Program-made: the position numbers and the translations under genes
The notes under the pieces: generated by a model
Databases searched by the model: none
What the model was told of the DNA's origin: nothing
The model's input: the letters and a program-made list of their open reading frames with translations, nothing else
Assembly (NCBI RefSeq): GCF_000455225.1
Contig: NZ_HF954534.1
Coordinates: 1 to 51,109 of the forward strand
DNA length: 51,109 bases
Origin: Megasphaera massiliensis
GTDB taxonomy: Bacteria > Bacillota > Negativicutes > Veillonellales > Megasphaeraceae
Direction of reading: 5' to 3'
Part shown: positions 5,403 through 45,073 of the stretch, in pieces
Layout of the letters: the number at the start of each line of letters is the position of its first letter
Numbering within the stretch: position 1 is the stretch's first letter

Positions 5403-6834
5403 AGGCGTTGCACCCGTTGCAGTCTTCCCCTTCTTCAGGGTCGCCGAAGAGACGAGCCTTCTGGCCGCGCAGGGCCAGCGTCGCCTGGATATACATAGCG
5501 CATTCGATGCGTTTCTTCTGGATCCGGCAGCTCAGGTCATACGGCGTCTTGATGTCGCCGCCGTACTTGATGTTGTTGGCATGGCAGCCGCCGCTGCAGA
5601 AGAATTTGGCCCAGCAGTCACAGCAGATGGGCTTGTTGAGGACGTGCATATCACGGAACAAGGGCGGCAGGGTCGTATTGGTCACGCCGTCATAGACGTT
5701 GCCGATGACATATTCGTCCTGGCCGACGAACTGGTGGCAGGGATAGATGTCGCCGTTGGGGACGACGCACATGTATTCGTGGCCGGCACCGCAGCCGCGG
5801 AGGCGTTTGGCGATACAGGGGCCGCGGTAGAGGTCCATGATGAAGTGATAGTAGATGAAGGGACGGCCTTCGTCGAGGCGCTTCAAGTAGAATTCGGCTA
5901 AGTTGTCGTATTCGTCGAAGATGCGGGGCAGGTCCTTTTCGGTAATGGCGTAGGACAGGTCGTCGCCGACGACGGGTTCCATGGACAGGCCTTCAAAACC
6001 GAGGTCGGCCATGTGTTCGACGTCTTTCGTAAAGTCCAGGTTGTACGTCGTGTACGTGCCGCGGACGTAGTACTCTTCCCCGTTGCGGTGCTTGGCCGCA
6101 TAGACCTGGTTGTCGGCACAGGTCTTATAGGAGCTGCGGCCGCCGGCGTCGGGACGCATCCGGTCGTGGACTTCGGGACGGCCGTCGAGGCTCAGGATGA
6201 GGCTGATGTGGTTGTCCGTCAGGTACTTGACCTTAGCCGGGTCGAGGAGCATGCCGTTGGTCGTAAGAGACAGTTTAAAGACCCTATCGTGGATCTTTTC
6301 CTGCTCCCGGATGTATTCGATGGTCTGTTTGACGACGCCGAAGTTCATCAGCGGTTCGCCGCCGAAGAAGTCGATTTCGCAGTGCTGGCGCTTGCCTTCA
6401 GTGCTGCGAATCAAGAGGTCGACGGCATTCTTGGCTACGTCGAAGCTCATCAGTTCCCGCTTGTGCGTGTCGTAGTCGCCTTGGGAGGCAAAGCAGTACT
6501 GACAGCGCAGGTTGCAGTCGTGGGCGATGTTGAGGCACAGAGATTTAATGACCGGTTCTTCTTCGGCGACGACTTTGAAGTTTTCCGTCATGGGCGCGAA
6601 GAGGAGTTCCTTCTTGATCAGTTCATCGAGCTCGCCGAGGATGTCGTCGAGGTCCTGTTTATCGTACGTACCGGCAAAGGCTTCGTAGACGGCGTCTTTA
6701 TTCGTGCCGTCGTAGACGTCGAGGACATCGTAGGTCATCTTGTCGATGACGTTGATGATGCCGCTGTTGACGTCGAGGAGCATGTAGGTACCGTTTTGAC
6801 AGTATTTATGAATCATTGGTTTAATTTCAGCCAT
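5395..6834 (-). CDS. SCIFF peptide maturase, radical SAM with SPASM domain
   Basis: A 479-aa radical-SAM enzyme of the family that installs thioether bonds in the six-cysteine SCIFF peptide (CteB type). The SAM-cluster motif is C107-x3-C111-x2-C114 (CNLRCQYC), followed by FFGGEPLMNF typical of the fold. The C-terminal half has the many cysteines of a SPASM region (CGAGHEYMC, YPCHQ, CCDCWAKFFCSGGC, YDLSC). The N-terminal 90 residues form the peptide-recognition part (MIHKYCQNGTYMLLDVNSG). The ATG at MAEIKP is chosen because GGAGG lies 11 nt upstream; an earlier ATG overlaps that GGAGG. The substrate gene lies just upstream. Confidence 0.94.
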   Translation of the reverse strand: MAEIKPMIHKYCQNGTYMLLDVNSGIINVIDKMTYDVLDVYDGTNKDAVYEAFAGTYDKQDLDDILGELDELIKKELLFAPMTENFKVVAEEEPVIKSLCLNIAHDCNLRCQYCFASQGDYDTHKRELMSFDVAKNAVDLLIRSTEGKRQHCEIDFFGGEPLMNFGVVKQTIEYIREQEKIHDRVFKLSLTTNGMLLDPAKVKYLTDNHISLILSLDGRPEVHDRMRPDAGGRSSYKTCADNQVYAAKHRNGEEYYVRGTYTTYNLDFTKDVEHMADLGFEGLSMEPVVGDDLSYAITEKDLPRIFDEYDNLAEFYLKRLDEGRPFIYYHFIMDLYRGPCIAKRLRGCGAGHEYMCVVPNGDIYPCHQFVGQDEYVIGNVYDGVTNTTLPPLFRDMHVLNKPICCDCWAKFFCSGGCHANNIKYGGDIKTPYDLSCRIQKKRIECAMYIQATLALRGQKARLFGDPEEGEDCNGCNACG

Positions 6835-6854
6835 GAATAATCTTTCCTCCATAT

Positions 6855-6888
6855 AAAAAAGAACGGGGTGCCGCGTGAGCGACGCCCC
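6855..6888 (-). terminator. Hairpin with U-run between SCIFF gene and maturase gene
   Basis: On the minus strand GGGG(C)GTCGC-TCAC-GCGGC(A)CCCC is followed by GTTCTTTTTTA. It lies 15 bp after the SCIFF stop and upstream of the maturase. It probably acts as a leaky terminator that makes peptide mRNA more abundant than enzyme mRNA. Confidence 0.7.
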
Positions 6889-6903
6889 TTTTCCTTGAAT
6901 AAC

Positions 6904-7044
6904 TTATTTTGTGCAGATCTGATTGCCAACGGTGCAAGAAGTCTTGCAGGCGGACTGGCAGGACGTCTGACATTCGCTGCAGCCAGCGTGCTGTGCCGTC
7001 TTCTGGATCGATTCCGTATTAATCGTAATGATGTGTTTTGCCAT
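6904..7044 (-). CDS. SCIFF ribosomally made peptide precursor (six cysteines)
   Basis: A 46-aa peptide beginning MAKHIITINTESIQ, with cysteines at 22, 25, 29, 33, 37 and 44. This is the layout of the SCIFF family (six Cys in about forty-five residues), in which a radical-SAM maturase joins a Cys sulfur to a nearby Thr. Family features include the leader-like N-terminus and the core pattern GCSECQTSCQSACKTSC. AGGTGA sits about 7 nt before the ATG. The maturase gene is the next gene downstream, past the leaky hairpin. The role of the mature peptide is not known for this family. Confidence 0.95.
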   Translation of the reverse strand: MAKHIITINTESIQKTAQHAGCSECQTSCQSACKTSCTVGNQICTK

Positions 7045-7076
7045 GATCTTCACCTCGCTATCAAAGATTATGCTTT

Positions 7077-7115
7077 ATTTTACCACATTACAGACGATTC
7101 TACAACAGAAGTCAA
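7077..7115 (-). promoter_or_regulatory. SCIFF operon promoters (two overlapping candidates)
   Basis: Candidate 1: TTGACT (7110-7115), 17-bp spacer, TGTAAT (7087-7092). Candidate 2: TTGTAG (7100-7105), 17-bp spacer, TAAAAT (7077-7082) with an extended TGG before the -10. Either gives a short leader to the SCIFF gene. Confidence 0.6.
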
Positions 7116-7117
7116 AA

Positions 7118-7513
7118 CTATAAGAGTTTAAAACCTTCAAAGAAGAAGTTCTTGCCGATGCTGATGACCAGCGATCTTTCTTCAAATACCGCGTTGGTGT
7201 CAAAGAAAACGTCAAAGCCTTCTTGATAGGTGGCATAAATCGAGGTAATGCGCTGCAGACAGCCGATGATATCATCAGCAGACACTTCCGGCTCACCCTC
7301 GGAACGCCATTTTTTATTCTTGAAACCGGCGATGAGCGGTGCGTGGGAAACGACCTGAGATTGGTGTTCCAAGACCCAGTTCCAGATTTCCTCAGCATAC
7401 TGTTGTGCCTGTTCTTCCCGGCCTTCAGGAAGTCCGTCGAGGGTAAACAAAACGGGGCGGCCGTCAACCATGATTTCATCCATGTAGCTGCCTTTGACAT
7501 ATTTTAAATTCAC
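7118..7513 (-). CDS. Unrecognised 131-aa cytoplasmic protein
   Basis: I do not recognise this protein. From the GTG start it begins VNLKYVKGSYMDEIMVDGRP and looks like a small soluble alpha/beta protein, with no signal peptide, membrane segment or cysteine-rich motif; the C-terminus is hydrophobic (GKNFFFEGFKLL). The start is well defined: GGAGGTG lies 7 nt before the GTG. A longer frame from an ATG at 7585 is excluded because that codon falls between the -35 and -10 of a consensus promoter. It lies between rubredoxin and SCIFF as its own transcription unit. Confidence 0.75.
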   Translation of the reverse strand: MNLKYVKGSYMDEIMVDGRPVLFTLDGLPEGREEQAQQYAEEIWNWVLEHQSQVVSHAPLIAGFKNKKWRSEGEPEVSADDIIGCLQRITSIYATYQEGFDVFFDTNAVFEERSLVISIGKNFFFEGFKLL

Positions 7514-7571
7514 AGAAGCACCTCCTGCAAAATCATGTGGAGCATGAAGAATGGTTATGTCTAACGTATTA

Positions 7572-7600
7572 ATTTTATCGTGCATTCAGGAGATTGTCAA
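7572..7600 (-). promoter_or_regulatory. Promoter of the 131-aa protein gene
   Basis: Minus-strand TTGACA (7595-7600), 17-bp spacer, TAAAAT (7572-7577). Near-consensus. It abuts the rubredoxin terminator. Confidence 0.75.
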
Positions 7601-7632
7601 TAAAAAAAAAGCTGCCGCCGAAGCGACAGCTT
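7601..7632 (-). terminator. Rubredoxin terminator
   Basis: On the minus strand AAGCTGTCGC-TTCG-GCGGCAGCTT is followed by a run of Ts: a 10-bp stem with one G-T pair and a UUCG tetraloop. Confidence 0.93.
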
Positions 7633-7643
7633 TCATGGCTGCA

Positions 7644-7805
7644 TTAGTCCATCTTCGTGAAGGAACCTTTGTCAGCACCGCAGGTCGGACATACCCAATC
7701 TTCCGGAAGATCAGCAAACTTCGTGCCAGCAGCGATACCGTTGTCAGCGTCGCCTTCAGCTTCATCATAAATGTAGCCGCAGATTGTGCATTCGTACTTA
7801 TCCAT
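7644..7805 (-). CDS. Rubredoxin
   Basis: A 53-aa one-iron electron carrier. The Fe(Cys)4 site is C6-x2-C9 (CTICGY) and C39-x2-C42 (CPTCGA), with the usual DLPEDWVCP. As I recall it, the sequence is close to the classic Megasphaera elsdenii rubredoxin, the strongest taxonomic cue here. CAGGAGGG precedes the ATG. Monocistronic, with its own promoter region and terminator. Likely roles are oxygen or superoxide detoxification or general redox shuttling; no partner reductase is next to it. Confidence 0.97.
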
Positions 7806-7829
7806 AATCTTTCCCTCCTGATTGACGTA

Positions 7830-7869
7830 TTAATAAATAATACTTATTAATTATTTTTACACAATTATA
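7830..7869 (-). promoter_or_regulatory. Rubredoxin promoter region with perfect inverted repeat
   Basis: TTAATAA-N7-TTATTAA (7830-7850) is a perfect 7-bp inverted repeat in an AT-rich leader. TATAAT (minus strand, 7864-7869) is a plausible -10, but no good -35 lies at 16-18 bp. The repeat would sit just downstream of the start site, where a repressor could act. It matches neither a clear Fur nor PerR consensus. Confidence 0.4.
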
Positions 7870-7897
7870 ATATCATATTGTCTTAAAAATTGCAAGG

Positions 7898-8548
7898 CTA
7901 TTTTGCCTGTTTTCCCATATTAATATCGATGATGCCCGACGAGTATGGGGCTACTTCATATTGGCCGAAAATGAAGTGGATATTGCCTTTCTTATCGAGG
8001 TAAAAATTCTTGGGATCTTCCGTCAGGCCGTTGAAATACGTCGACAAGACGTGGTCGCTCAAGGTCAGCTTGTTGGTGATCTTTTGCAGGGTGAAAGCCT
8101 TTTCATCACCCGGTTTGACCAGTTCGCGCCAGTCCGTAATGCGCCGTCCCGTTTCCAGGTCGAAGACGACACCCGTCTTCCAGCTCGTCGGATGAGCGGC
8201 TCGGTCGAAATAGAGGTAGCCTTCATCGAGGAACGACAGGTATTTCCCATTGTTCAATGTAACGGTGTAATGCTTTTCTTCGGTCAGCTTGACGCCCTTC
8301 GTCCCCTGCTGGGCAAAAAATTCCTGAGCCTGAGCCTGTTCATCGGCAAAATAATTGGCGATGACAGCGGCCGCCGCGGCATTGCCTTCGACGGTGACCG
8401 ACGGATACTGGATGGTCAGGACACTGCCATCGTCATGGGTATAGACAGCCTTCGGTGCGTCTTCAATGACGGCCGGCGAGGCTGCCATGGCAACAGCCCC
8501 CATGAGCCAGGCTCCGCACAAAAGGGTGAGCAATTTCTTGTTTATCAT
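7898..8548 (-). CDS. Secreted DUF3298/RsiV-like protein
   Basis: A 216-aa protein with a signal peptide (MINKKLLTLLCGAWLMGAVAMAA, cleavage near residue 23) and a DUF3298-type C-terminal domain like the extracellular part of RsiV, seen in FDLETGRRITDWRELVKPG and the final segment with YEVAPYSSGIIDI. There is no anti-sigma or membrane domain, so it is probably a free periplasmic protein. Ligand unknown; RsiV binds lysozyme, but that cannot be assumed here. GAGGAGGG lies about 6 nt before the ATG. Confidence 0.82.
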   Translation of the reverse strand: MINKKLLTLLCGAWLMGAVAMAASPAVIEDAPKAVYTHDDGSVLTIQYPSVTVEGNAAAAAVIANYFADEQAQAQEFFAQQGTKGVKLTEEKHYTVTLNNGKYLSFLDEGYLYFDRAAHPTSWKTGVVFDLETGRRITDWRELVKPGDEKAFTLQKITNKLTLSDHVLSTYFNGLTEDPKNFYLDKKGNIHFIFGQYEVAPYSSGIIDINMGKQAK

Positions 8549-8596: not shown

Positions 8597-10423
8597 TTAT
8601 TGGACAATTTTCCGCTTTTCATCGCTCCCTAAGCGGAAAAAGTCATAGATATTTTCAGCGGCACGACGGTTCATGCCCGGCACGGCAGCCAGTTCTTCGA
8701 TGGACGCTGCCTTCATGTCGGCCAGGGTCTTGAAGGCCGTCCACAAGGCCTTGCGGCGCTTGGGCCCGATGCCTTCGACGTGGTCCAATACCGATACCAG
8801 GCTGCGCTTGCCGCGCAGATTCCGGTGATAGGTAATGGCAAAGCGGTGGGCTTCGTCGCGGATGGACTGGAGGAGCTGCAGTTCCGGCGTGTGATGGCTG
8901 AGGATGATGGACTCGCTGCTGCCTTCGACGAAGACTTCTTCGATGCGCTTGGCCAAGCTGATGACCGGCGCTTCACAGCCGGCATCGCGGATGATGGGAA
9001 GGGCCGCGTGGAGCTGGCCCTTGCCGCCGTCGATAATGATGAGGTCCGGCACGGGCCAGTCTTTTTCGCCGTAGCGGCGGCCCATGATTTCGGCCATGGA
9101 CTTGAAGTCGTCCGGTTTGCCCTGAACGGTCTTCAATTTAAAGCGGCGGTATTCCTTCTTGGCCGGCTGGCCGTGTTCGAAGACGACCATGGAGGCTACG
9201 GTCTCGATCCCCTGGGTATGGGAAATATCGAAGCATTCCATCCGTTCGGGAAGATAGGGCAGATTGAGGATCCGCGCCAAGCCTTCGACGGCTCCCGTCG
9301 TCTTGTCCACGTCGTGCTGCCACTGGAGGCGCTTCTGTTCCAAGAGGGCGGCGGCGTTTTCACAGGCCATAGCCAAGAGCTGTTTCTTCGTTCCCCGCTG
9401 GGGGACGATGACGCTGACCTTCTTGCCCTTCTGTTCGCTCAGGCGGCGTTCACAGCTTTCCCCGTCTTCCATAGCCGGGACGACGACTTCCGTCGGAACG
9501 AAGGTACCGTCGCTGTAATACTGGTCGAGGACGGCATTCATCAGGGCCCCTTCTTCTTCGTCACTGCTGTTGTCCAACGAGAAGGTTTCCCTTCCCATGA
9601 GTTTCCCCATGCGGACGGTGTAAATCTGGACGCAGGTCTGACCGGCCTGACGGGCCAGGCCGATGACGTCCATGTCGCCGCCGTCGGTGTTGACGATATT
9701 CTGCTGTTCCTGAATGACGGCGACGGCCTTCAATTGGTCGCGGTACATGGCCGCTTTTTCAAACTCCATGGCTTCCGCCGCTTCAGCCATCTTATCCTGC
9801 AAGGTCCGGACGATGCCCTTGTCCCTACCTTCGAGGACGGCCACGGCCTGGTCGACCCTCTCATTGTAGTCGGCCTTGGTAATGTAGTGGACGCAGGGTG
9901 CATCGCAGTGGTGCAAGTGGTACTGCAGGCAGGGCCGATCATTGGGCATGACGCGGCACGAGCGGATGCGGTAGGCCCGCTGCATCAGTTTCAAGACCCG
10001 GTGGACCGCCGTCGAGTCGGCAAAGGGGCCGAAATAGCGGGCGCCGTCCCGACTGACGCGGCGGGTCATGAAGATCCGCGGATAGTCTTCCTGGACGGTG
10101 ACCTTGATATAGGGATAGGTCTTGTCGTCGCGGAGCATGATGTTGTAGCGGGGATGATGCTTCTTGATGAGGTTGTTTTCTAAGATCAGGGCTTCCATCT
10201 CGGTGGCGACGACGATGGTCTCCAGGTCGGCGGCATGGCTGATCATGGCAGCCACTTTAGGCGAGCGGTTGACGTCGTGACGGATGTAGCTGGTCACGCG
10301 GTTGCGGAGGTTGACGGCCTTGCCGACGTAGATGATCTTCCCGTTCTCGTCCTTCCACAGGTAGACCCCGGGCTGGCCGGGCAGGTTCTGTACTTTCTTG
10401 CGTACGGCTTCACTGACAGCCAT
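8597..10423 (-). CDS. uvrC: UvrABC excinuclease subunit C
   Basis: A 608-aa dual-incision nuclease of nucleotide excision repair. The N-terminal GIY-YIG domain shows GVYLWKDENGKIIYVGKAVNLRNR (3' incision). A UVR UvrB-binding motif lies near residues 205-240. The RNase H-like domain (ECFDISHTQG, IIDGGKGQL) performs 5' incision, and tandem HhH motifs (VEGIGPKRRKAL, VPGMNRRAAE) end the protein. The start lies 3 bp after uvrA, whose last codons supply the GGGAGG ribosome site. Last gene of the repair operon. Confidence 0.98.
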   Translation of the reverse strand: MAVSEAVRKKVQNLPGQPGVYLWKDENGKIIYVGKAVNLRNRVTSYIRHDVNRSPKVAAMISHAADLETIVVATEMEALILENNLIKKHHPRYNIMLRDDKTYPYIKVTVQEDYPRIFMTRRVSRDGARYFGPFADSTAVHRVLKLMQRAYRIRSCRVMPNDRPCLQYHLHHCDAPCVHYITKADYNERVDQAVAVLEGRDKGIVRTLQDKMAEAAEAMEFEKAAMYRDQLKAVAVIQEQQNIVNTDGGDMDVIGLARQAGQTCVQIYTVRMGKLMGRETFSLDNSSDEEEGALMNAVLDQYYSDGTFVPTEVVVPAMEDGESCERRLSEQKGKKVSVIVPQRGTKKQLLAMACENAAALLEQKRLQWQHDVDKTTGAVEGLARILNLPYLPERMECFDISHTQGIETVASMVVFEHGQPAKKEYRRFKLKTVQGKPDDFKSMAEIMGRRYGEKDWPVPDLIIIDGGKGQLHAALPIIRDAGCEAPVISLAKRIEEVFVEGSSESIILSHHTPELQLLQSIRDEAHRFAITYHRNLRGKRSLVSVLDHVEGIGPKRRKALWTAFKTLADMKAASIEELAAVPGMNRRAAENIYDFFRLGSDEKRKIVQ

Positions 10424-13318: not shown

Positions 13319-15445
13319 CTAGCGCTTCTTCTTGGCATCGGGCCGCTTGATCTTTCGCCGGTAGCGGCGGCTGGGCATGTCTTCCCCGCCCATTTCTTTC
13401 GGCAGGGTGTCGTCGTGGCTCATATCGGCCAACTGTTGGCGCAGCTGCCCTAAGCGGTCGCGCAGTTCGGCAGCCTTTTCAAATTCCAGCCGCTTCGACG
13501 CTTCCTTCATTTGCAGGGTCATGGTCTTAATGACCTTGTTCAGGGCTTCGCGGGTCATGGCCTTGCCCTTGTCGCCTCGTTTGCTGCCGTAGTTGGCATC
13601 CTCTTCGGAAACTTTCGTCAATTCGATGAGGTTGACCACGTCTTTTTTGACCGATTTCGGCGTAATGTGGTGCTGTTTATTGTAAGTATCCTGAATTTCC
13701 CGGCGGCGCTGGGTTTCATCCATAGCCCGTGCCATGGAATCGGTAATCTTATCGGCATACATGATGACCGTCCCTTCGACGTTTCGCGCCGCCCGGCCCA
13801 TGGTCTGGATGAGGGATGTATCGGAACGGAGGAAGCCTTCTTTATCGGCATCGAGGATGGCCACCAGAGAGACTTCCGGCATGTCCAGGCCTTCGCGCAG
13901 GAGGTTGATGCCGACCAGGACGTCGAATTCGCCGACCCGCAGGTCGCGGATGATCTCAGCCCGCTCGATGGTAGCGATATCCGAATGGAGGTAGCGGACG
14001 CGGACGCCCATTTCCTTCAGATAGTCCGTCAAATCTTCGGCCATCTTCTTGGTCAAAGTCGTGACCAGGACTCGTTCGTCCTTGTCGGTCCGCTTGCGGA
14101 TTTCCCCTAAGAGGTCATCCATCTGGCCCTCGATGGGACGGACTTCGACCTTGGGATCGAGGAGGCCCGTCGGGCGGATGATCTGCTGGGCCATATTCGT
14201 TTCGACATCCATTTCATAGGGACCGGGCGTAGCGCTGACGTAGACGATCTGATTGATGCGTTCGACAAATTCGTCGAATTTCAAGGGCCGGTTGTCGAGG
14301 GCCGACGGCAGGCGGAAGCCGTATTCGATGAGGCTTTCCTTCCGCGACCGGTCACCGGCGTACATGGCCCGCAATTGAGGCAGGGTGACGTGGGATTCGT
14401 CGACGAGGATCATGAAGTCGTCAGGGAAATAATCGAGGAGGGTGTACGGCGCCTGTCCGGCTTTACGGCCGGCTAGGTGGCGGGAATAGTTTTCGATGCC
14501 CGAGCAGTAGCCCATTTCTTCCATCATTTCCATGTCGTACCGCGTCCGCTGTTCCAGGCGCTGGGCTTCCAACAGGTGTTCCCCGTCTTTGAGTACTTTC
14601 AATCGTTCGTCCAATTCCTTGCTAATGGTGCCCAAGGCCCGTTCCATCTTGTTCTTGGTCGTGACGTAATGGCTGGCCGGGTAGATGGCGACGTGCTTGC
14701 GCTCGGCAATGACTTCCCCGGTCAGGACGTCGACTTCGGTCAGGCGATCGATTTCATCGCCGAACATTTCGATGCGGATAATGGACTTGTCGAAGGCCGC
14801 CGGAAAGACTTCGATCGTATCGCCGTGGACGCGGAAGGTCCCGCGGTCGAGGTTCATGTCGTTGCGGTTGTACTGGATGTCGACGAGCTTCCTCAAGATT
14901 TCTTCCTGCGTCTTTTCCTGTCCCAGGCGCAAAGAGACGACGAGTTCGCTGTAGTCTTCGGGGTCACCGAGGCCGTAGATGCAGGACACGGAAGCGACGA
15001 TGATGACGTCCCGCCGTTCAAAGAGGCTCATCGTCGCCGAGTGGCGCAGTTTATCGATTTCATCGTTGATGGACGCATCCTTTTCGATATACGTATCGGT
15101 CGAAGCGATGTAGGCTTCAGGCTGATAAAAATCGTAATAACTGACGAAATAGCCGACTTCGTTATCCGGGAAAAAGGCCTTGAATTCGCTGCACAGCTGG
15201 GCTGCCAGGGTCTTGTTGTGGGCGATGACAAGCGTCGGCTTCTGGACCTTTTCGATGAGCTTGGCCATGGTAAAGGTCTTGCCGGTCCCCGTGGCGCCGA
15301 GAAGGACCTGGGCCCATTGGCCGGACTCGATGCCTTCGGCCAGGGATTCAATAGCCTCGGGCTGGTCCCCCATCGGTTCATAAGGGGCGACGACGCGGAA
15401 GGGATGGGACGTATCGTAATCTTTATTGTAATGAGACATATCCAT
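13319..15445 (-). CDS. uvrB: UvrABC excinuclease subunit B
   Basis: A 708-aa helicase-fold subunit that verifies damage and loads UvrC. Visible are Walker A (GATGTGKTF), the beta-hairpin region ([11 protein letters not shown]), DESH, the SATPGPYE segment, and a C-terminal UVR motif ([20 protein letters not shown]). I use the ATG giving MDMSHYNKD, as GAGGTGG lies 6-7 nt upstream; an ATG 12 codons earlier has none. It follows the NdpA-like gene by 41 bp. Confidence 0.97.
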
Positions 15446-15486
15446 AAGGGCCACCTCGCTGCAGCTGTCGGCTGCGGACAAAATAA

Positions 15487-16488
15487 CTATTTATTGACGA
15501 TCTTTCCGATATTCTTCAACTCGATGGACAAGGTGCCGTCGGGATTGTTGATGAAGCGGATAAAATCGGTGTTTTCGATATATTCGGACGGGAAGGTGAT
15601 TTCAATGCCCGTATCGGTCTTGATCTTATGGCTGCGGCCGGCCTTCTGGGCGTATTCCTTTTCAATGGCCACGACGTCAGGCAGTTTAGCTTCGGCCACT
15701 TGCTGCTGAAATTCCTGAGCCATGGCCGGCGAGCTACCGAAGACCTCCGTCCCCATGTCCTGGGGCGAGAAGGAATCGGCATTTTCGGCGTTTTCCACTA
15801 AATAGGTCTTGGCCTTGGACAAGGCTTCGACCGTGCTGGCACCGTGGTCTTCGGCGACTTTTTCAGCGATCTTGCTGACGACCTTGACGGCTTCCTTACT
15901 GGAAATGACCGACGTGCACTGGAGCAGGCGGTCCGGCAGGAGGTAGACGTCTTCGCCATCCATCTTGCGCTTCTTGTCGACGAAGTGGATGGAAAAGTCA
16001 CTGAGGCGGATGAGAGCATAGGCTTCGGCCTTCTGAGCCATACCGGGCAGAATGGCGTAGTGCTTGATGAGCTTGTTATAGACCGTCCCCTCGTCGTCGA
16101 GGATCTGATGGGTATAGGCCGTCTTATTGTCCAGCATGAGGACGGCGATATTGCGGACGTCGTCGTCATCCTGAAAGTCGATGACCAAGAGGTCTGTCGA
16201 CTCCGGTTCATCGCAGTGAGCCACCAATTGGTAGAGTTCGCGGGCCGTATCCGCCGCCAGTTCGTCAAAGGTCAGGCTGCCGTCGATGACAGCTTGGAGC
16301 TTGGGCTGAAAGGCACTGGTCGCATAGAAGACGCCCGTCTGCTGGGACGCATCGCCGAGGATCCGGCTCAGCCTCTTATTGACGTATTCATAGACGACGT
16401 CGCTGCTGAAGTCGAGGGCCTTCTGGGACACGATGCAGACGTTGGTATTGAAATCAAAAATATGGAGCACTGCTGCGTTGATCATCAT
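15487..16488 (-). CDS. NdpA/YejK-like 37-kDa nucleoid-associated protein
   Basis: A 333-aa protein of the 37-kDa nucleoid-associated family: [13 protein letters not shown] at the start, [22 protein letters not shown] in the centre, and the terminal EIKFPSEY-like segment ([17 protein letters not shown]). The family binds DNA and localises to the nucleoid; mechanism is poorly understood. Its place between metallophosphoesterase and uvrB in a repair operon suggests a role in genome maintenance here, which is inference. Either of the first two Met codons could start it. Confidence 0.8.
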
Positions 16489-35634: not shown

Positions 35635-36564
35635 TTACATAAGATTAGACAATGATCGCATAATAAGATCTATATCCTGATTTTCAAGTTCCTGTATAAT
35701 ATGCAGATATGTTTTCTGTGTAGTCGTCATACTGGCATGCCCGAGCCGCCGTGCCACACTTGCAATGGAAACCCCGGCAAAAAGCAGAATAGATGCATGG
35801 GTATGACGAAGTCCATGAACAGAAATTACAGGAATTTCAAGTTTCTTACAGCAACGTTCCAGGATATCATTTACAGTAGAATTATATACCTTTTTCTTGG
35901 TGATAAAAATCGGTTTATCCGGCGGCATATCTTTAACAAGAAAAGCAAATTGCATAATTACTTGCCAATCAATTTGAATTTTTCGGACAGAAGACTTATT
36001 CTTTGTCGGCGAAAAACCTCCCCCATTTTTATAATCCCATGTTTTGCTGACAGAAAGTGTCTGATGGGCAAAGTCAAAGTCAGCCGGAGTGATTGCAAGG
36101 GCTTCTGAAAAACGCATTCCCGTCTTGGCAACCAAAAGGATAAACCAGTCCCAATTAACCTCATTCCCGAGATTCAGGCTTTTCAATAACGTATGAAGTT
36201 CAAACTGATTCAAATATTTGATTTTCTTTTGGGACTGGGCTTTTCCTTTGATAATAACTTTTCTGGTCGGATCGCGAGGGATAAGACCTTCATCAACAGC
36301 ATCAAGGATTGACCCTTTTAACTGATGATGAAAATCCATGGTTGTCTGACGTTCATGTTCCTTGGCATATTCGTTAATGATTTGCTGATAGGCCACCCGC
36401 GTCACATCGCAAAGTCTAAGATTCGGAGCCAGACGCTCCAGCCAAGAAAGGCTCATACGGTACTTAGAAAGGGTCACACTGCGAATAGCGCCTTCCTTAT
36501 ACACAGCAATCCAGTTTCGGTAATAATCCTTCAAATAATCCGTTGATCTGTTTTCAATTGCCAT
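35635..36564 (-). CDS. Tyrosine recombinase next to type I R-M genes
   Basis: A 309-aa tyrosine recombinase. An N-terminal SAM-like core-binding domain (about 1-120) precedes the catalytic domain, with Arg in TGMRFSEAL, His and Arg in HGLRHTHAS, His in RRLGHASM and the nucleophile Tyr in QKTYLHI, so it appears active. GGAGGAGG lies 5 nt before the ATG. It begins 48 bp after hsdR in the same direction, unlike a typical integrative-element integrase at an end. Recombinases in this position commonly shuffle hsdS (known for other genera). No excisionase or relaxase gene is nearby. Confidence 0.9.
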   Translation of the reverse strand: MAIENRSTDYLKDYYRNWIAVYKEGAIRSVTLSKYRMSLSWLERLAPNLRLCDVTRVAYQQIINEYAKEHERQTTMDFHHQLKGSILDAVDEGLIPRDPTRKVIIKGKAQSQKKIKYLNQFELHTLLKSLNLGNEVNWDWFILLVAKTGMRFSEALAITPADFDFAHQTLSVSKTWDYKNGGGFSPTKNKSSVRKIQIDWQVIMQFAFLVKDMPPDKPIFITKKKVYNSTVNDILERCCKKLEIPVISVHGLRHTHASILLFAGVSIASVARRLGHASMTTTQKTYLHIIQELENQDIDLIMRSLSNLM

Positions 36565-36611: not shown

Positions 36612-39600
36612 TTACGATTTTTCTTCTTCATCCGGATCCGGAATGTCAATCCCGCCTTCGAGGATAAACTTAGTGAGCAGTTCATCCACGCGGTTATTCA
36701 CGCGGAATGGAGGTAAGCTTTTCCCATCGACTTTCGTGAAATACTTTTGGGCCTTTTCTCTTACTACCGTCGCTTTCAATTCATCAAACCGCCCGTATTC
36801 ATTCAAATTATCTTTTGTTACATGAGCATCCATCATTTTTTGCAGGAGCTCCTCAGAACAGCCAAGGGAGTCAGAAAGTCTCCGTTCTTGCCGTCTCTTT
36901 GCATTGCTAGCGTACTCTACAATATAATCTCTGAAAGTCTTGCCTTCCGTAAAGCAAACATCCCCGGTCTGTACATCGTGAAGAAAGAGGTTAGCATACT
37001 TTTGTTCTTCCTGTGAGAGGAAGGCAAACGATTTGTGGAGTTCCGTCAGCGTCGCTTCTACAGCAGCCGGATCCGCATTGGGATCGCTCAGTTGTTTTCT
37101 CCACTTTTCAAAACGAGAGTTCATATAGTCGTTGTCAATAACCCCCGTGTTCTGTTCGGTGAGATAAGGATCGATGGGGAAGGTAATGTCATCATCATCC
37201 CCTCTATTTCCATCATCAGGTTTGCGCAATTCTTTGTACCGCTGAAGGAGGATATTATACTGTTCTTCCGTCGGCAGCAGATGAATGATTTCTTCCTTGC
37301 TCGTATCTTCTGCATCAATGATAGAAGAATATTCAGTCTTATCCCAAGTAAAGCCCTGAATTCTTGCCGCCTGCAAATAGGTAGAAAATTCACGGAAAAG
37401 TTTGGCAAATTTTGCTTTTGAAGGAAGATCTTCCGGTAATCTATCCATAGCCGGGACATCGGCATTTTTAAAAATATCTACCATATCGGCAAAAGTTACA
37501 TTCATATGGCGAACATTATCAGGCAGATGGTCCGCAAAAAGACCTTGGGGACGATCGCCGGAATAGAGCTGCACAGCGTCTTCAATATTCCGCTTCATCG
37601 TATGAGGCATTCGGTAATAACGAATGGAACCAAACGGTTTTTCATTGATGTTAAAAAGCCGGTTAGTACGCGAAAATGCCTGGATTAAATTCTGATAAAC
37701 CAAAACCTTATCCAAATAAAGGACGTTAATCCACTTAGAATCGAAGCCGGTCAGCATTTGATTGACGACAATCAGCAAGTCCAACTGCATTTCAGGTTCG
37801 ACTCGTTCATAGGGCTTCTTGTGGGCCAATCTTGCCGATACATCTTTTTTAAACTTAGCGTATCCGCCGATATCGAAGCACTGGCCGAAGGTTTTATTAT
37901 AATCTTCGAGCATCGCTTTTAGTCCGTCTTCTTTATCAAGCGAACGTTTTCCACCTTGATTATCAATCGTCGGATCAAAAAGCCCGGTTACTTTCAGTTT
38001 GGGATATTTTTCCCTGAATTTACGATAGTAACGGACAGCTTCCGGAATGCTGCTGGTAGCAAATAAAGCATGAAATTTATGATTTCTTGACAGGGTCAAC
38101 CAGTTTTCGGCGATATTATCGACTATCGCCCATTCATATTCATCGGTCTGCCAGGCTTCATCTCCTACATAGTCTTCTATCCCCTTCAGGTATTTTCCGT
38201 CCTCCTGGCGTTGTCCTGCCATGGGCACTTCAGATGGCGACATGAAATGATAGTACTTCTTGCTCATACTTGGATTCGTTACAGCCTCTTCCTCAGAACT
38301 TGCCCCGGATTCCTGCAAGGCAACTTTCTTTCGCAACTCGTTGTCTTTATAGACCATTACCATCGTGGGGTCGAAGCCGAGAACATTTTTATCACGAATA
38401 CCATCTGCAATACTATAGCGATGCAATTCATCACCAAAAATATCAGCCGTCGTCGTCATAACTTTTTCATTTTCACGGAATACAGGCGTTCCCGTAAATC
38501 CGAAAAAGAGCGCATGGGGGAATGTCGCCTTAATAGTGGAAAGCATTTCGCCAAAGGTAGAACGATGACATTCATCAATAATAAATACGAGACGTTTAGA
38601 TTTCATGGCCTCAAGGTCTTTTGCCTTCATGCTAACTTCTGCATCGTCTTTGATATTGCTCATCTTCTGAATGGAAGAAACAATCAAGGTATTTTTAGGA
38701 TCATTGCTTTTCATCTTGCTTATCAGAGTGACCGTATCTTCTGTTTCCTGCACGTCATCGGCATTATCGGCAAAAGCCCGATATTCCTTGAGCGACTGTG
38801 TACCAAGTTCAATCCGATCCATCAAGAATACGACTTTATCCGCATCTTTCGAAGCTGCGATAAGCTGAGCTGATTTAAAGGAAGTCATCGTCTTGCCAGA
38901 TCCCGTTGTATGCCAAATATAACCCCCAAGCTGATTTCCTTCTTCCCAGTCATGTTTAGCCACACGGTCAGAAATCCTATTGGCAGCATAATATTGGTAG
39001 CTCCGCATGACTTTCAAAACCCCGTCAGCATCATCTGCAACGGTATAGAACCCGACTAACTGATGAGCCATGGGAATTGACAAAAGCAGCTCGGCAACAC
39101 GCTTCCAATCGTTGATAGGATCATTATTCAAATCTGCGCAGTGGAAATAAAAATCTGGATTGAACCGTCCATCGGGGCCCGGATTCGAAAAATACAAAGT
39201 CTCGGTCGGATTCATTGCCACAAAAATCTGGATAAGAGAGAAAAAGCCAGTAAAAAGCCCTTCATGAGCGTATTTTTCAATTTGATTGGCCGCTTCAATT
39301 ACGGGAACACCGGACTTCTTCAGTTCGATATGAAAAACAGGCATGCCGTTAATCAGTAACATCAAGTCACCGCGTCGGTCTTGCAATACTTTTTCGTGAC
39401 GGGCAAATCGAGGTTGTTGAACGATCTGGTAGCGACTTTGTCCGGCGGCAATTTCCATGCGGTCATAGATTTTCAAGCTTACTTCTTTGCCATAGTGCAA
39501 GGTATCTTTAGGGTTTTTTCGAGTTATGGATACAGTTTTCCCATTGATGAAGCCGTTTAAAGCCAAAGGAGTCCGAAGACGATTGATTTGTTCCAGAAGA

Positions 39601-39797
39601 TCATCGATTTCTTCTTGAACAAGAGGAAAATCACCCAAGCGGTCGATACTCCGATTGTTTTCAAAAAGAATATTCGCCCAGTTTTGAATCAATTCTTTTT
39701 CTGTCGGATACTTAATGACATCCTGTCCCCAACCGTAACGCTGCAATGCAGTAATCAAGGCCGCTTCAAAATCTACTTCTTTATCAAAATCATCCAT
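36612..39797 (-). CDS. hsdR: Type I restriction enzyme R subunit
   Basis: A 1061-aa translocating nuclease. The N-terminal nuclease core has GDLML (D144) and HIELKK (E158-x-K160). The SF2 motor has Walker A HTTGSGKT (299-303), IDECH (408-411), GFTGTP, and the AFSRTNR motif VI. The C-terminal helical domain binds the methylase. The gene has its own ribosome site, AGGAG, 7 nt before the ATG giving MDDFDKEV, so it should be translated separately, although the upstream hsdS frame reads straight into it through a one-base deletion. Intact. Confidence 0.93.
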   Translation of the reverse strand: MDDFDKEVDFEAALITALQRYGWGQDVIKYPTEKELIQNWANILFENNRSIDRLGDFPLVQEEIDDLLEQINRLRTPLALNGFINGKTVSITRKNPKDTLHYGKEVSLKIYDRMEIAAGQSRYQIVQQPRFARHEKVLQDRRGDLMLLINGMPVFHIELKKSGVPVIEAANQIEKYAHEGLFTGFFSLIQIFVAMNPTETLYFSNPGPDGRFNPDFYFHCADLNNDPINDWKRVAELLLSIPMAHQLVGFYTVADDADGVLKVMRSYQYYAANRISDRVAKHDWEEGNQLGGYIWHTTGSGKTMTSFKSAQLIAASKDADKVVFLMDRIELGTQSLKEYRAFADNADDVQETEDTVTLISKMKSNDPKNTLIVSSIQKMSNIKDDAEVSMKAKDLEAMKSKRLVFIIDECHRSTFGEMLSTIKATFPHALFFGFTGTPVFRENEKVMTTTADIFGDELHRYSIADGIRDKNVLGFDPTMVMVYKDNELRKKVALQESGASSEEEAVTNPSMSKKYYHFMSPSEVPMAGQRQEDGKYLKGIEDYVGDEAWQTDEYEWAIVDNIAENWLTLSRNHKFHALFATSSIPEAVRYYRKFREKYPKLKVTGLFDPTIDNQGGKRSLDKEDGLKAMLEDYNKTFGQCFDIGGYAKFKKDVSARLAHKKPYERVEPEMQLDLLIVVNQMLTGFDSKWINVLYLDKVLVYQNLIQAFSRTNRLFNINEKPFGSIRYYRMPHTMKRNIEDAVQLYSGDRPQGLFADHLPDNVRHMNVTFADMVDIFKNADVPAMDRLPEDLPSKAKFAKLFREFSTYLQAARIQGFTWDKTEYSSIIDAEDTSKEEIIHLLPTEEQYNILLQRYKELRKPDDGNRGDDDDITFPIDPYLTEQNTGVIDNDYMNSRFEKWRKQLSDPNADPAAVEATLTELHKSFAFLSQEEQKYANLFLHDVQTGDVCFTEGKTFRDYIVEYASNAKRRQERRLSDSLGCSEELLQKMMDAHVTKDNLNEYGRFDELKATVVREKAQKYFTKVDGKSLPPFRVNNRVDELLTKFILEGGIDIPDPDEEEKS

Positions 39798-40344
39798 AAC
39801 TTTACTCCTATTCTTACAAAATTTCCATAAATTCAGCTTTCGTTGATGAAGGGTAATGAGATCGTCAAGATTTTTTAGATAAGCTCCGATTTTCTTCTGT
39901 TCAGCTATATCCCTAGGTATCATTAAAGTTGTTTCAAAAAAATCATCCGGAGCAATATTCAGCAATCCATGATTTCTTGCTCCTTCTGCTGCAATCATCC
40001 GAATACTTTTATACCATAAAGCAGTATTATAATAAGAAGCAAGATAATCTGAATCCACCTGGTTTTCATCAAGAATTCTAAAAATAATATATAGTGTCGA
40101 TAAAACCCCATTCTCATATCGATCAAGGCGTTTAATTGCTCCCCAAGGCGCATCAGTAGATGTGCTTTTATTGTAAGCAAATTCACCTTTATGAATAAGA
40201 TAATAATTACTGACATCTTTACTCGCAATACGTTTGTCAAAAAATTCATTCTGATCGATTAATCCATATTGAGCCGATATTGTCAGTGGTAGATTAGATA
40301 CAAGGTCTTTATTTTTTCTTGTAACTCGTCCAACTATGTGACCC

Positions 40345-40364
40345 AACTTACGCTGTTCCCAATC
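40345..40364. repeat. hsdS internal direct repeat, copy 2
   Basis: aacttacgctgttcccaatc, identical to 40930-40949, 585 bp apart. Encodes the shared DWEQRKLG helix start before TRD2. A second, shorter repeat, gatgaagggtaatg, occurs at 39845-39858 and 40472-40485. Confidence 0.95.
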
Positions 40365-40929
40365 GCCCGTAAAACCAGAAAATCGAATTTTCGGCACTTT
40401 TTGTCCATTTTTCGGAAAACAATTTTCAATCATCGATTTTTTAATAATTTTCAACTTTTCACACTTACGCTGATGAAGGGTAATGGTTTTATCTAAATAC
40501 GTGAAAAACACACCTATTTTATCTTGTTCCGTGGCATCGACTGGAATCATTACATGTTTTTGCTCCATCCCTGACTTTGTAATATGAATCATTGTTGAGC
40601 CATTATGCCCTGCCAATAACGCCTCTTTATCCCTATCAAGTAATTGAACCATAAAATGTTTCTTACCCGTATTAGCTAACTCAATTTTCCAAATATGGTA
40701 ATGATAAATGACTTTTTCCCCGTGCCAAATATGAGGGCCAAAAGTAGCAGACCATGTATATAATAAATCTCCGTCATTTGCATAATATCTTTCTGGAAGT
40801 TCAATATTAGAATAGTACCACGAGTCATTTGTATAGAAATTCCCTACACGCAAAACTCTATATTTTCCTTCATCTAATAATTCAGTTTGAGAATACGCTC
40901 TCCCGTTTATAAATGTGGCAATGTCTCCT

Positions 40930-40949
40930 AACTTACGCTGTTCCCAATC
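40930..40949. repeat. hsdS internal direct repeat, copy 1
   Basis: aacttacgctgttcccaatc, identical to 40345-40364. Together the copies bracket target-recognition domain 1 and could support recombination that removes or swaps it. Confidence 0.95.
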
Positions 40950-40989
40950 ATCAGTGAAGCCTTTAAAGCGAATGCGTGGTTTTTTCGTC

Positions 40990-43570
40990 TTATTCATCAG
41001 TTTCACCACCTATCAATTTTTGTAATTCTCGGATTCCCGCCATATCGGCATCAGACCCGGTCAGATCCGATAGCATAGAAGATAGTAATTTCTCCGTACG
41101 TCTAATATCGTCTTCAATATCCTTCATAGTGACAGAATATTTTTGTGCCAGTAATTCCACTCGTTTCGTAAAATCGTCAATCATGGCATCAGCAAGAGCG
41201 GCGATGTTATTTACAATCGGGGTAACCCATTTTTTATGAAGAAGCTGCCGTACATCTTCATCAGAAAAGTTTTCAATCGTCTCTTTTGTCAAAAGATGCA
41301 ACGAAGTTTCTTCTTCTTTGATTTGTTTTTTTAGACTTTTTTCCTTGTCATTCAAACTTTGAGCACTCTTAAGAATTTGAATCAATACCTTGTTGTCCGC
41401 TTCATCTTCCTTGAGTACTTTTATGACACCTTTTATATTCTTGAATACAAACTCATCATTTGATTCATTCAAAGCATCGCTAATAGTGTTTTTATCGTCT
41501 TCACTCAAAGTCTCAATCAGTTCTTCATAAGCATGGGGAATTTCAGCGAGCTCATCGCGTTTTTTCGACAATGCATTCAATTGCTCAGAAAGGTAAAATT
41601 CTTGGACCAACTCGAATTCAAATGCATGCCCTTTCCACCCCTCTTGAACCTCAACTTCTTTCCCTTTTTGTTTCTTTACAACCATGTTGGGATCAACTTT
41701 TTTAAAAGTATCTATTCCTTCTGACTGAACGAGCTCTAAGTCTCCAGAGATGATGCTATACTTTTCTTCAAAACTTTCATACGCCTGGTAAGGGTCTAAA
41801 ATCGGAATACCCGAAAAATGATCAAAAAGATCTGAAGCAATTTGTTCCTCCATTTTAGGGATAGAGAGCGACAAAGACTGATCAATCAGATTTTTATCCA
41901 AATATTCCCCGAAATCAGCAAATCGACTGTGAAAACGTCCCAGAAAATTCTGAACATCAAGATTATTCCGAATCGTTGTTTTAATGTCCTCATTCTTCAC
42001 AGAAACATATTCATCATCGCCGGTAAAGAGATTTCTTTAAGAGATGGAAAAACCTCCCAATAAGAATCTAGGACAGCAAGTTCACTCACAGGAATCCCGC
42101 CAAACATGGAAGCGTAAATATCATAACTTCCCGTCTCTTCCGAAGAATCCACGTAACGCGGAATATTCAAATTATAGTCATTGGCCCTAATTTCATCACG
42201 GCTGACCAAGCGGGATATTTTTCTATACTCAGCCGTCCTTTCACTGTATCCACGACACGGCGAATATCAGAAGGCCTCAATCTATTATTTTTTCCCTCCT
42301 TTGTAAATCCCTTAGAGGCGTCGATTACAAGGACATCTGTATTTTCTCTTTTTTGCCGCAATATCATAATAATGGTTGGAATCCCTGTACCGAAAAAGAT
42401 ATTCGCCGGAAGTCCGATAATCGCATCAATATTATTCTGTTCAATAAGGTTCTTACGAATTTGTCCTTCTTCACCGCCACGGAACAGAACCCCATGAGGC
42501 AAGACGATTGCCATAATACCATCAGGCCGCAAGTGATAGAGATCATGCAGTAAAAATGCATAATCAGCTTTAGACTTAGGCGCAAGGCCGTACCTGGAAT
42601 AGCGTAAATCATTTTCTCTTCCAGACGAATCCCAGCGTTGAGAATAGGGCGGATTAGAAACGACAGCATCCACATAGAGTGGATCATACGTCCCGACCGG
42701 ATCGGAGTCTTCAAAATACGGCCAGTCATCTTCCAGGGTATCTCCATTGCGAGTCACGATATTATCCGGCAAGATACCGCGCATAACAAGATTCATCCGG
42801 GTCAGATTGTAAGTATTGGACTTTAGTTCCTGTGCATAATAGCGAATACGATTTTTATCTTCCATATATTTTGCCGTCGTCTGGCCTATGTTGATAAGAA
42901 GACTGCCGGAGCCACTCGTCGGATCATAAATCTTGATGTTTTCTCTGCCTCTCAGTTGATTGGCCACAATTTCAGACATGAGGAGAGAAACTTCATGGGG
43001 TGTATAAAATTCCCCTGCCTTCTTTCCGGCATTGGCGGCAAAGTTTGAGATCAAATATTCATAAATGAAGCCCAATACATCATAATCCTGTTTTTTCTGC
43101 ATAGGGATTTCATCAATGAGATGCGCCAGATCACGAACAGATTTGGTTTGGGACTTAGTGTTTTCACCCAGCTTGGAAAGTCCCGTCTCGAGGGTATTAA
43201 AAATCCCTTCAAATACTTTTTTATGAGAAGGAGAAATGAGACGAGTAAAGGAAGATAATGCGGTACGCACATTGTCTACAGAAAAATCAGAACCTAAGTG
43301 AATCCAAGTTGAAAAGAGATCTTTATAGGAGATAAAGTACCCGAGATTTTTCTGAACAGTACGAACCGTTTCGAAATCCTCTTCATTTACATAATTTATA
43401 ATATCTTCCTTCGTATATTCTTGGGACAGAAGCCACTGCTCTTCCTTATCAGACAAATATTTATAAAAGATAAAGCCAAGGATATAGTCTTTATATTCAT
43501 TAGGTTCGATTTTCGACCGCATACGGTTTGCAGATTCCCATATTTTCGCAGCCAGCTGTTGTTTATTCAT
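40990..43570 (-). pseudogene. hsdM: Type I DNA methyltransferase subunit, two frameshifts
   Basis: An N6-adenine methylase spread over three frames: 43570 to about 42214, about 42214 to 42010, and about 42010 to 40990. The first part has the SAM motif DPTSGSGSLLINIG and catalytic NPPY. The middle reads SRDEIRANDYNLNIPRYVD, typical of HsdM, and the last holds the helical C-terminus. The breaks look like single-T losses: TAT-CCC for TATTCCC near 42214, and a T-run near 42018. The 2581-nt span plus two bases is exactly 861 codons. AAGGAG lies 9 nt before the ATG giving MNKQQLAAK. As written, no full-length methylase is made. Confidence 0.9.
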
Positions 43571-43688
43571 TGAAGTATACTCCTTACTATATATTCGTTC
43601 AATAGTCAAACGTTTGATTCTAATCTCAATAAAGTGCCGTTATCATCGTAATATTCCTTATTATTAACGATTATCCTGCATAATAAAT

Positions 43689-43985: not shown

Positions 43986-44040
43986 TAACAAAAGCCGATA
44001 CAAGACATCCCTAAAAGATGCCCTATATCGGCTTTTCTCA
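43986..44040. terminator. Bidirectional terminator at the distal end of the CRISPR array
   Basis: AAAAGCCGATA (43990-44000) pairs perfectly with TATCGGCTTTT (44026-44036), with a nested GCATC/GATGT stem. It is placed to end a minus-strand pre-crRNA. Confidence 0.8.
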
Positions 44041-44051
44041 TGCAAGATTCA

Positions 44052-44128
44052 GTTTTCAGTCCCCCTATAGCATTACCTCCTTTTTCTAAAAGGAGTCCAA
44101 TTAAATCTGGAGATTTTAGTAATGCGAC
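44052..44128 (-). repeat. Long-form CRISPR repeat L1 (degenerate, leader-distal)
   Basis: Same ends as the short repeat, but with a 40-nt insert inside the hairpin after CCCCCTATAG. The insert contains CTCCTTTT-TCT-AAAAGGAG. Also has an extra T near its 5' end and changes GGGGATTTTGG to GGAGATTTTAG. Confidence 0.9.
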
Positions 44129-44162
44129 GGTTGAGCTGGTCAAACTTGTTCGGCGAAAGCTT

Positions 44163-44238
44163 GTTTCAGTCCCCCTATGGCACAAACTCCTTTTTCTAAA
44201 AGGAGTCAATTTAGACCTGGGGATTTTGGTAATGCGAC
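44163..44238 (-). repeat. Long-form CRISPR repeat L2
   Basis: 76 nt: the 36-nt repeat split after CCCCCTATGG by exactly 40 nt, CACAA + ACTCCTTTT-TCT-AAAAGGAGT + CAATTTAGACCTGG. 3' end is TAATGCGAC. Confidence 0.92.
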
Positions 44239-44499
44239 TGCCAACAACACAGATCGCATGTCTTGGTCAACTGAACGTTTCAGTCCCCTTACGGGGATTT
44301 TGGTACTCTGGCTTATCCGATAAAGCCGTCGAAGAAGTTGCGTGGTTTGTAAAGTTTCAGTCCCCTTACGGGGATTTTAGTACTCTGACGATGACGATTT
44401 CTGCCACTTATGCGCCGTTGCCGGAGTTTCAGTCCCCTTACGGGGATTTGGTACTCTTACTGATAAACCCGGAAAGCCGCGGAATATCAAGACAATCCT

Positions 44500-44575
44500 G
44501 TTTCGGTCCCCCTATGGCACAAACTCCTTTTCCTAAAAGGAGTCTAGTTAAATCCGGGGATTTTGGTACGCCGAC
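44500..44575 (-). repeat. Long-form CRISPR repeat L3 (between short repeats)
   Basis: 76 nt, same insertion point. The insert differs from L2 only outside the stem: loop CCT for TCT, and the tail CTAGTTAAATCCGG. Its 3' end, ACGCCGAC, is that of the leader-proximal short repeats. Confidence 0.92.
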
Positions 44576-44799
44576 ACGAATATAGGTATGTAATCGATGT
44601 TGGATTTGACTTGTTTCAGTCCCCTTACGGGGATTTTGGTACGCCGACGCCAATTGCTTCAAGCCGCATGGTGGCAGTATCTACCGTTTCAGTCCCCTTA
44701 CGGGGATTTTGGTACGCCGACGAAAAGCCACGGAAAATATCTGGTTGTTTCCGGATCGTACGCGTTTCAGTCCCCTTACGGGGATTTTGGTACGCCGAC

Positions 44800-45052
44800 T
44801 CTGTCTCTCAGTACCCGCTCCCAGACTGGGCTCACAGGCGATTTTTTCAAACCTCCGGCTTTTTTCGTCTTTTTCGGGGACCCAGGTGAAAAACAAAAAT
44901 CAGGCAATGGCGATTATCGGCTTGGTTACGCCATTTGTAGCCATTTTGGAAATTTTCAAACCTACGGGGTTTTTGGCCCTGAAATAGGTTTTCCAAAGGT
45001 CAGTCGTACTTTGACTTTTCTTTAGTATACGTTTTTCGACTTTTATTGTCAA
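44800..45052 (-). promoter_or_regulatory. CRISPR leader and promoter
   Basis: Minus-strand TTGACA (45047-45052), 17-bp spacer, TATACT (45024-45029) is near consensus and drives towards the array. The leader, about 225 nt, contains a duplicated segment (44844-44865 and 44953-44974) with AGGTTTGAAAA in common. No protein gene is seen in it. Confidence 0.7.
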
Positions 45053-45073
45053 ACGAGTAGTCGCGTTAACTCC

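Follow-up and report, generated by a model that had tools for sequence, protein, structure and literature searches.

The repeats of a CRISPR array are generally taken to stay uniform, since each new repeat is copied from the leader-proximal one. Insertions into such repeats have been described: one survey reports, in the passages that concern us, 59 CRISPRs with transposon insertions in print, including a 180-bp MITE in a Microcystis repeat (PMC4852346). The insert that we describe here, in Megasphaera, resembles those cases in that foreign DNA splits a CRISPR repeat. The two insertions detailed in those passages, however, are a 1,221-bp IS and the 180-bp MITE, with short target duplications, whereas the Megasphaera insert is a 44-nt palindrome that shows no visible duplication, occurs in many repeats, arrays and species, and lies nowhere else in the genomes searched.

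Two repeat lengths within one array are described for locus-121 of Sulfolobus tokodaii, where the atypical repeats are 18 bp longer; there, as far as the account of that locus goes, shorter spacers follow and the unit size is kept, whereas the Megasphaera unit grows by about 40 nt (PMC4390879). Similarly, the CRISPRDetect paper speaks of extra-large repeats, 44-50 nt in length, and of central insertions at which detection programs split arrays (PMC4869251); such repeats, too, are of unusual length or carry inserted bases; the long repeats of Megasphaera, however, measure 74-79 nt overall and are made by a defined, recurrent insert. Finally, the insert is a short palindrome, as are REP sequences, which in the relevant part of their description are high-copy (PMC1525189), and its insertion into a palindrome recalls the IS elements that target REP sequences (PMC3733652). 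As they are described, REPs carry a GTAG or CGTC tag (PMC3733652). We saw no such tag on reading the insert alignment, and copies were found only in CRISPR repeats, so that neither the tag nor the many dispersed copies of a RAYT-associated REP element are found.

CRISPRs of Megasphaera are already in print, in passages that give no detail of such an insert (PMC3832451). Our literature search, mostly of non-subscription papers, brought up no published case of a recurrent element restricted to CRISPR repeats, and no work combining Megasphaera, a CRISPR array and type III. The original prediction, which was made from the DNA of this locus, knew of no precedent: within the parts of the literature that were accessible this holds for a recurrent element confined to CRISPR repeats, but not for single insertions (PMC4852346).

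The window, by which we mean the whole stretch of 51,109 nucleotides analysed here, from Megasphaera massiliensis, contains nine CRISPR repeats and eight spacers of 34-42 nt at 44053-44799 (Table 1). The repeats are near-identical, the spacers are unique and of regular length, and a leader is present, all as in a CRISPR array. Three of the nine repeats are long (L, 76 nt each) and six are short (S, 35-36 nt), and their order, distal end first, is L L S S S L S S S. The repeat coordinates confirm the two lengths, the order and the spacer range of the original prediction, whose starts for the long repeats (44052, 44163 and 44500) are right to within 1 nt. The array appears to be transcribed from the right, on the minus strand, as supported by the leader that it shares with other arrays and by decay at the opposite end. 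One promoter-like site, TTGACA-17-TATACT (11 of 12 letters, 45052-45024), was found in the leader, versus 1.5 expected in shuffles. The spacers were compared with databases in two ways: those of the window array had no phage match, and none of four exact 20-mers from L-adjacent spacers matched IMG/VR.

Table 1. Features of the window array and its surroundings (positions in the window).
Feature	Position	Detail	Match
Trailer palindrome (GCCGATA...TATCGGC)	43989..44038	distal end of window array	homologues beside other arrays
Long repeat L1 (76 nt)	44053..44128		
44-nt insert of L1	44065..44108	hairpin CTCCTTTT-TCT-AAAAGGAG at 44077-44095	insert-model match 60.4 bits
Long repeat L2 (76 nt)	44163..44238		
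44-nt insert of L2	44175..44218	hairpin 44187-44205	insert-model match 61.3 bits
Short repeat (36 nt), end type TACTCTG	44277..44312		
Short repeat (36 nt)	44354..44389		
Short repeat (35 nt)	44426..44460		
Long repeat L3 (76 nt), end TACGCCGAC	44500..44575		
44-nt insert of L3	44512..44555	hairpin 44524-44542	insert-model match 63.1 bits
Short repeat (36 nt)	44613..44648		
Short repeat (36 nt)	44686..44721		
Leader-proximal short repeat (36 nt)	44764..44799		
Leader	44800..45060		resembles leaders of same-family arrays in own genome and two relatives

The short repeat consists of GTTTCAGTCCCC-TTAC-GGGGATTTTGGTA and a variable end. Relative to it, the long repeats of the window gain exactly 40 nt, which is the insert length given in the original prediction. 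The loop letters differ, however, being TTAC in S and CTAT in all three L, and the insert is therefore better described as a 44-nt segment that replaces the 4-nt loop between CCCC and GGGG. Mid-insert lies a perfect 8-pair stem, CTCCTTTT/AAAAGGAG, which is intact in all three long repeats, as had been claimed. Among the repeat ends, TACGCCGAC is indeed common to L3 and the last three S; TAATGCGAC occurs in L1 and L2, and variants of TACTCTGAC end the three S in the middle of the array.

Read by eye, the window also holds a type I restriction-modification-like cluster (36612-43609), in which we recognise an HsdM-like ORF (42167-43609) and a 1465-aa ORF (36612-41009) that is HsdS-like and then HsdR-like in one frame. 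Beside this cluster is an integrase-like ORF (35635-36564).

When an 84-nt query from L2 was searched against the genome of the same organism (28 contigs, 2.74 Mb), further copies were found, with a best E of 1e-19. Contig C3 carries further arrays of the window repeat at 67, 93, 142, 144 and 146 kb, and contig C6 has one at 524 kb. On C3 there are long copies at 67, 93 and 142 kb as well as decayed copies at 142.6 and 145.3 kb; a diverged L copy at C6:525.5 kb belongs to a second repeat family (GTTTCCG...). This second family (GTTTCCG...GGTTCTTAAC), which is heterogeneous, occupies L044 9391-11240 (C6:524390-526240), where two leader-like stretches are split by an ORF and inserts at both of the sites defined below, alpha and beta, are present. 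By eye, we noted three additional decayed candidates, at ~C6:523.99, 525.4 and 525.7 kb. A DNA search of 100 genomes, the present one included, found the unit in three, all of one genus: this genome, Megasphaera sp. UBA1696 and one further genome (G010). Given the matches elsewhere in the genome and the same units in two others, chance is excluded.

We also scanned with a covariance model of the insert, R1. At E<=0.01 it finds 26 distinct places in 3 of the 61 genomes of the order (10, 13 and 3 places), all Megasphaera; the 22 sequences from which R1 was built, like the 20 behind a second model, R2, match by construction, so that the informative part is the absence of matches elsewhere. The context of each place was read, and all 26 lie inside CRISPR repeats, some with decayed arms. 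The search of relatives' genomes proposed in the original prediction yields two more Megasphaera. When the threshold was relaxed to E<=1 in four genomes, there were 29 matches, of which the three additional ones fell on the opposite strand at known places. Neither scan (61 genomes at E<=0.01, four at E<=1) found a copy outside CRISPR repeats, with the qualification that weak copies may be missed, the E<=0.01 scan having stricter filters and first-look candidates having been scored in part per genome (104; 150 in the E<=1 scan). The bare stem pattern occurs at 9 places in the window's own genome: CRISPR repeats account for 7, and the other 2 lie in contexts unlike the element. In G010, arrays C38, C61 and C62 have one insert each, and none was found in the readable sequence of the arrays near its cas genes. 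The insert is real, recurrent and common to three species, and it is probably a miniature insertion element resident in CRISPR repeats.

A phage source for the insert was rejected, for the 7 IMG/VR contigs with the pattern share only the stem region, in one near-identical context that is unlike the element. Outside Megasphaera the genome scan gave one match (L061), which has little in common with the insert apart from the letters of the pattern. Six plasmid matches are cyanobacterial records with 60-80% identity over 8-9% of the query, and Rfam returned CRISPR repeat models below gathering scores together with weak matches to unrelated families. The suggestion that spacer-like DNA had been mis-integrated into a repeat is likewise unsupported, since the same 44-nt family occurs in many arrays and at two sites and shares just its stem region with the viral contigs. 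An assembly artefact or chimera might be suspected from the gaps (N) in other arrays of these assemblies; but the same unit stands in three separate assemblies, one of them UBA1696, at apparently orthologous places, and we regard this explanation as practically negligible.

From repeat and leader, the arrays appear to belong with type III. The G010 contig with arrays of the main family (GTTTCAG) has matches above cut-offs for cas1, cas2, Csx19 (III-D) and Csx7; its Cas6 is over the cut-off for PF10040 and below that of the NCBIfam Cas6 model, and four other ORFs on this contig have no match. Another relative, G007, carries a III-A set next to GTTTCCG arrays, comprising Cas10, Csm2, Csm4, Csm6, Cas6, Cas1 and Cas2. 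In the window's own genome we found no RAMP, no PF10040 Cas6 and no type III cas genes, and the window arrays therefore seem orphaned. Its single Cas1 lies on a contig other than the window's and adjoins cas4- and cas2-like ORFs (by eye). No RAMP was found in UBA1696, whose assembly is only 82% complete. A separate CRISPR-like locus, L065 ~6700-7900 and 14370-16440 (C6:838.7k-848.4k), has cas1-, cas2- and cas4-like ORFs, and no effector genes were recognised there by eye in the stretch read.

On balance, we lean towards the view that the insert is a miniature palindromic element resident in the type III-like CRISPR repeats of Megasphaera, which would have entered repeats at least twice, been copied, and then been exchanged. 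The element, of ~44 nt, would comprise two arms of ~10-13 nt that flank a stem, mostly of 8-10 pairs. One entry would have been into the loop of the repeat's stem-loop (site alpha, nearly all copies) and another just outside the stem (site beta). An element in the leader-proximal repeat could then be duplicated with every spacer acquired, which would produce runs of long repeats; the copies would be exchanged by gene conversion, within and between arrays; and later growth with short repeats would leave the long ones mostly leader-distal, as they are now. The mixture in the window would arise by recombination between two arrays of the form 'L then S'.

Alternatively, a single insertion might suffice: the 76-nt repeat would be an inherited variant, copied at acquisition and later replaced by a short template via recombination, without independent movement. 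We consider this unlikely, although several observations are as it would have them. All alpha copies sit at one position in the repeat and align throughout, and independent alpha insertions are thus not proven. At two arrays, the L farthest from the leader appears to be orthologous between two species. One UBA1696 array consists of 6 L then 8 S then the leader, and a second of 6 L (the first decayed) then 6 S then the leader. Moreover, across all 17 L copies compared, with decayed copies and the GTTTCCG family left out, insert and arm distances correlate (Mantel r 0.45, P 0.0005), which indicates that inheritance of inserts with repeats occurs too.

A single insertion does not, however, account for the copies at site beta, since a different site within the repeat is not explainable by repeat copying. 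Two copies are clear (C6:526157 and G010 C62) and a decayed candidate lies at ~C6:525.7 kb; each follows a complete stem-loop and is placed between GGGG(ATT) and the end of the repeat. It is likely that they are inverted relative to alpha. With arm profiles taken from alpha copies, all three score higher inverted than direct (shuffle P 0.0001, 0.003 and 0.015 inverted; 0.027, 0.0135 and 0.70 direct), and the alpha-only covariance model R2 gives C6:526157 18.1 bits at full length inverted versus 11.2 direct. R2 prefers the direct orientation for the G010 C62 copy, however (12.3 versus 7.6 bits, core only), and the right arms of two beta copies match alpha directly too (P 0.0095 and 0.006 in the direct-orientation comparison). 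With alpha and beta, the insert occupies more than one target position, as a MITE or insertion element would. The terminal inverted repeats and target-site duplication of a MITE are absent: the inverted repeat is the central stem only, and on reading the sequences we saw no duplication at alpha or beta junctions.

As judged by comparing the sequences, inserts also vary independently of repeat arms within two arrays, both in UBA1696, where inserts resemble their neighbours no more than they do in permuted order (P 0.75 and 0.95). For example, L2, L3 and L4 of the C1 array have identical 32-nt arms; the insert of L3 has 9 and 10 differences from its neighbours, and those of L2 and L4 differ by 1. 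In the C9 array, L2 and L5 carry one and the same insert, and two different ones stand between them. These orders cannot come from leader-proximal repeat copying by itself, and such alternation along arrays with identical arms counts against a single insertion. The two sites and the shuffled inserts support mobility. Of the three options offered in the original prediction, an insert that moves between repeats is therefore the best supported, as the arms are not tracked within arrays and the second site is probably inverted.

The return to the short form does not look like a simple loss. A one-block deletion in the 17 L sequences never yields any of 10 S sequences, and where the arms of L and S agree, the loop letters TTA or TTAC remain unexplained. 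Since S is not obtained from L by simple deletion, the return probably used a short repeat as donor.

Long repeats are leader-distal in the five arrays of the main (GTTTCAG) family with both ends seen, namely the window array, C3 67k, C3 93k, UBA1696 C9 and UBA1696 C1; 0 of 200000 permutations reach the observed bias. The C1 array entered this test with its decayed L counted, and a repeat run that adds its decayed distal short repeat gives the same result. For the three own-genome arrays alone the bias is modest (2164 of 200000 permutations; P ~0.011). The arrays left out were C3 142k/144k and G010 C38 and C61, on account of gaps, as well as C3 146k (no L; a decayed L ~0.65 kb beyond), C6 524k, the G010 C52 arrays (no insert in the readable part) and the GTTTCCG family. 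Spacers between two L are slightly shorter than those between two S (means 36.4 versus 37.9 nt; n=10 and 36; P 0.028). The leader-distal rule fails in the second repeat family, where UBA1696 C24 reads S-L-S, and the beta copy at C6:526.1 kb adjoins a leader. A decayed short repeat stands distal to the oldest L both in the C3 142k array and in the orthologous array of UBA1696; short forms thus come before long forms as well as after them. The lone L between two S in C24 and these decayed distal short repeats both tell against a single insertion.

The runs might also have arisen without copying, if an active element had once filled nearly every existing repeat and later repeats had stayed free of it. 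The C1 array of UBA1696 offers some encouragement for such target-specific transposition, in that its L/S border is sharp and the arms are nearly unchanged across it: the last L (L5) has GTCTCAG and an almost identical end in common with the short repeats that come next, and the border is thus a loop change in an otherwise continuing repeat. The unordered inserts fit as well, as does a decayed, presumably untargetable short repeat left at the distal end. We nevertheless hold this scenario to be quite improbable, because the R1 scan found no source copy outside CRISPR repeats, no transposase is known, alpha is one shared position, and the alignment, by reading, shows the TTAC loop retained at the junction of none of the alpha copies.

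Arrays have exchanged material with one another. An ancient distal spacer is common to the 44k (window), 67k, 145k and C6 524k arrays, all 6 pairs lying beyond all 5000 shuffles; its neighbour on the leader side is L in the 44k and 145k arrays versus S in the 67k and C6 arrays. The 144k and 146k arrays on C3 have one 39-nt spacer in common, a sign of array duplication or recombination. With ancient and recent spacers shared between arrays, inter-array recombination evidently happens, and it can explain the mixture of L and S in the window; the original prediction's recombination between two leader-proximal templates was, to that extent, partly right. Most simply, then, the window order L L S S S L S S S would be two 'L then S' arrays joined. 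The fusion partner is not singled out by leader distances, which from the 44k array are 28 to 93k, 27 to 67k, 25 to UBA1696 C9 and 26 to C3 144k.

Two further observations concern the arrays as units. At C3:142942-144671 and C3:144684-146229, a run of N lies between two arrays. A palindrome, CGGTACC-AGACATC...GATG..GGTACCG, lies at distal array ends in three genomes: in the window (Table 1), at C3 ~67340-67390 and 93020-93065, and at L058 ~8185-8235, L084 (reverse complement) ~8790-8845 and L044 ~8900-8955. Its occurrence at several arrays in three genomes suggests that trailer, array and leader may travel together as one module.

The hairpin itself had been read as under selection. A stem with at least 7 contiguous pairs is present in 17 of the 19 copies counted, and both arms are longer in some. 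Covariation is modest (22 sequences): 90.4% of stem cells are paired, a value reached by 32 of 500 shuffles; two stem pairs have changes on both sides (124 of 500); and the number of doubly changed cells and the covariation score are each reached by 5 of 500. A palindrome can also keep such a stem without selection, by hairpin-templated correction. The pattern can reflect either process, and the claim of selection is not borne out: paired and coupled stem-length changes exist, but templated correction gives the same. In RNA folds, the short repeat reaches -9.8 kcal/mol (z -1.0) and four long repeats reach -20 to -25 kcal/mol (z -1.7 to -3.2). As anticipated, the CCCC/GGGG stem still forms, in the short form and, with the hairpin stacked on it, in three of the four long forms; the diverged C6 copy, however, folds with a shorter outer stem.

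A function for the hairpin repeat at the array end, where it might stop transcription, block deletion or tune processing, would also place long repeats distally. In the five arrays tested, nothing but one decayed S, in UBA1696 C1, lies distal to the outermost L; the trailer palindrome adjoins the distal L, and the pairing and paired changes just described fit as well. Yet L3 stands mid-array in the window, a beta copy lies beside a leader, several copies are decayed, and a terminator scan found no terminator-like site at the window L repeats; with templated correction able to preserve the stem, we think this role very improbable.

Returning to the resident element that we favour, a bolder form of the idea is that it is a mobile element specialised to CRISPR repeats, lodging in or beside the Cas6-type stem-loop, where the handle and stem would be left usable. 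The acquisition machinery would then copy it free of charge, making it a parasite of immune memory that would spread through acquisition and conversion, with rare re-insertion. This we put forward tentatively, as possible rather than probable.

The observations bear on CRISPR biology in several ways. The 44-nt unit evolves apart from its host repeat, makes repeats twice as long over entire runs, and seems to have got into repeats on more than one occasion. Programs that look for arrays would be likely to break up or misinterpret those that contain such inserts. If long repeats were copied, Cas1-Cas2 tolerated a repeat of ~76 nt, beyond the 44-50 nt of the extra-large repeats in the passages cited above (PMC4869251), which bears on how the integrase measures repeats. 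And if the element moves, CRISPR repeats would be a replication niche for selfish DNA.
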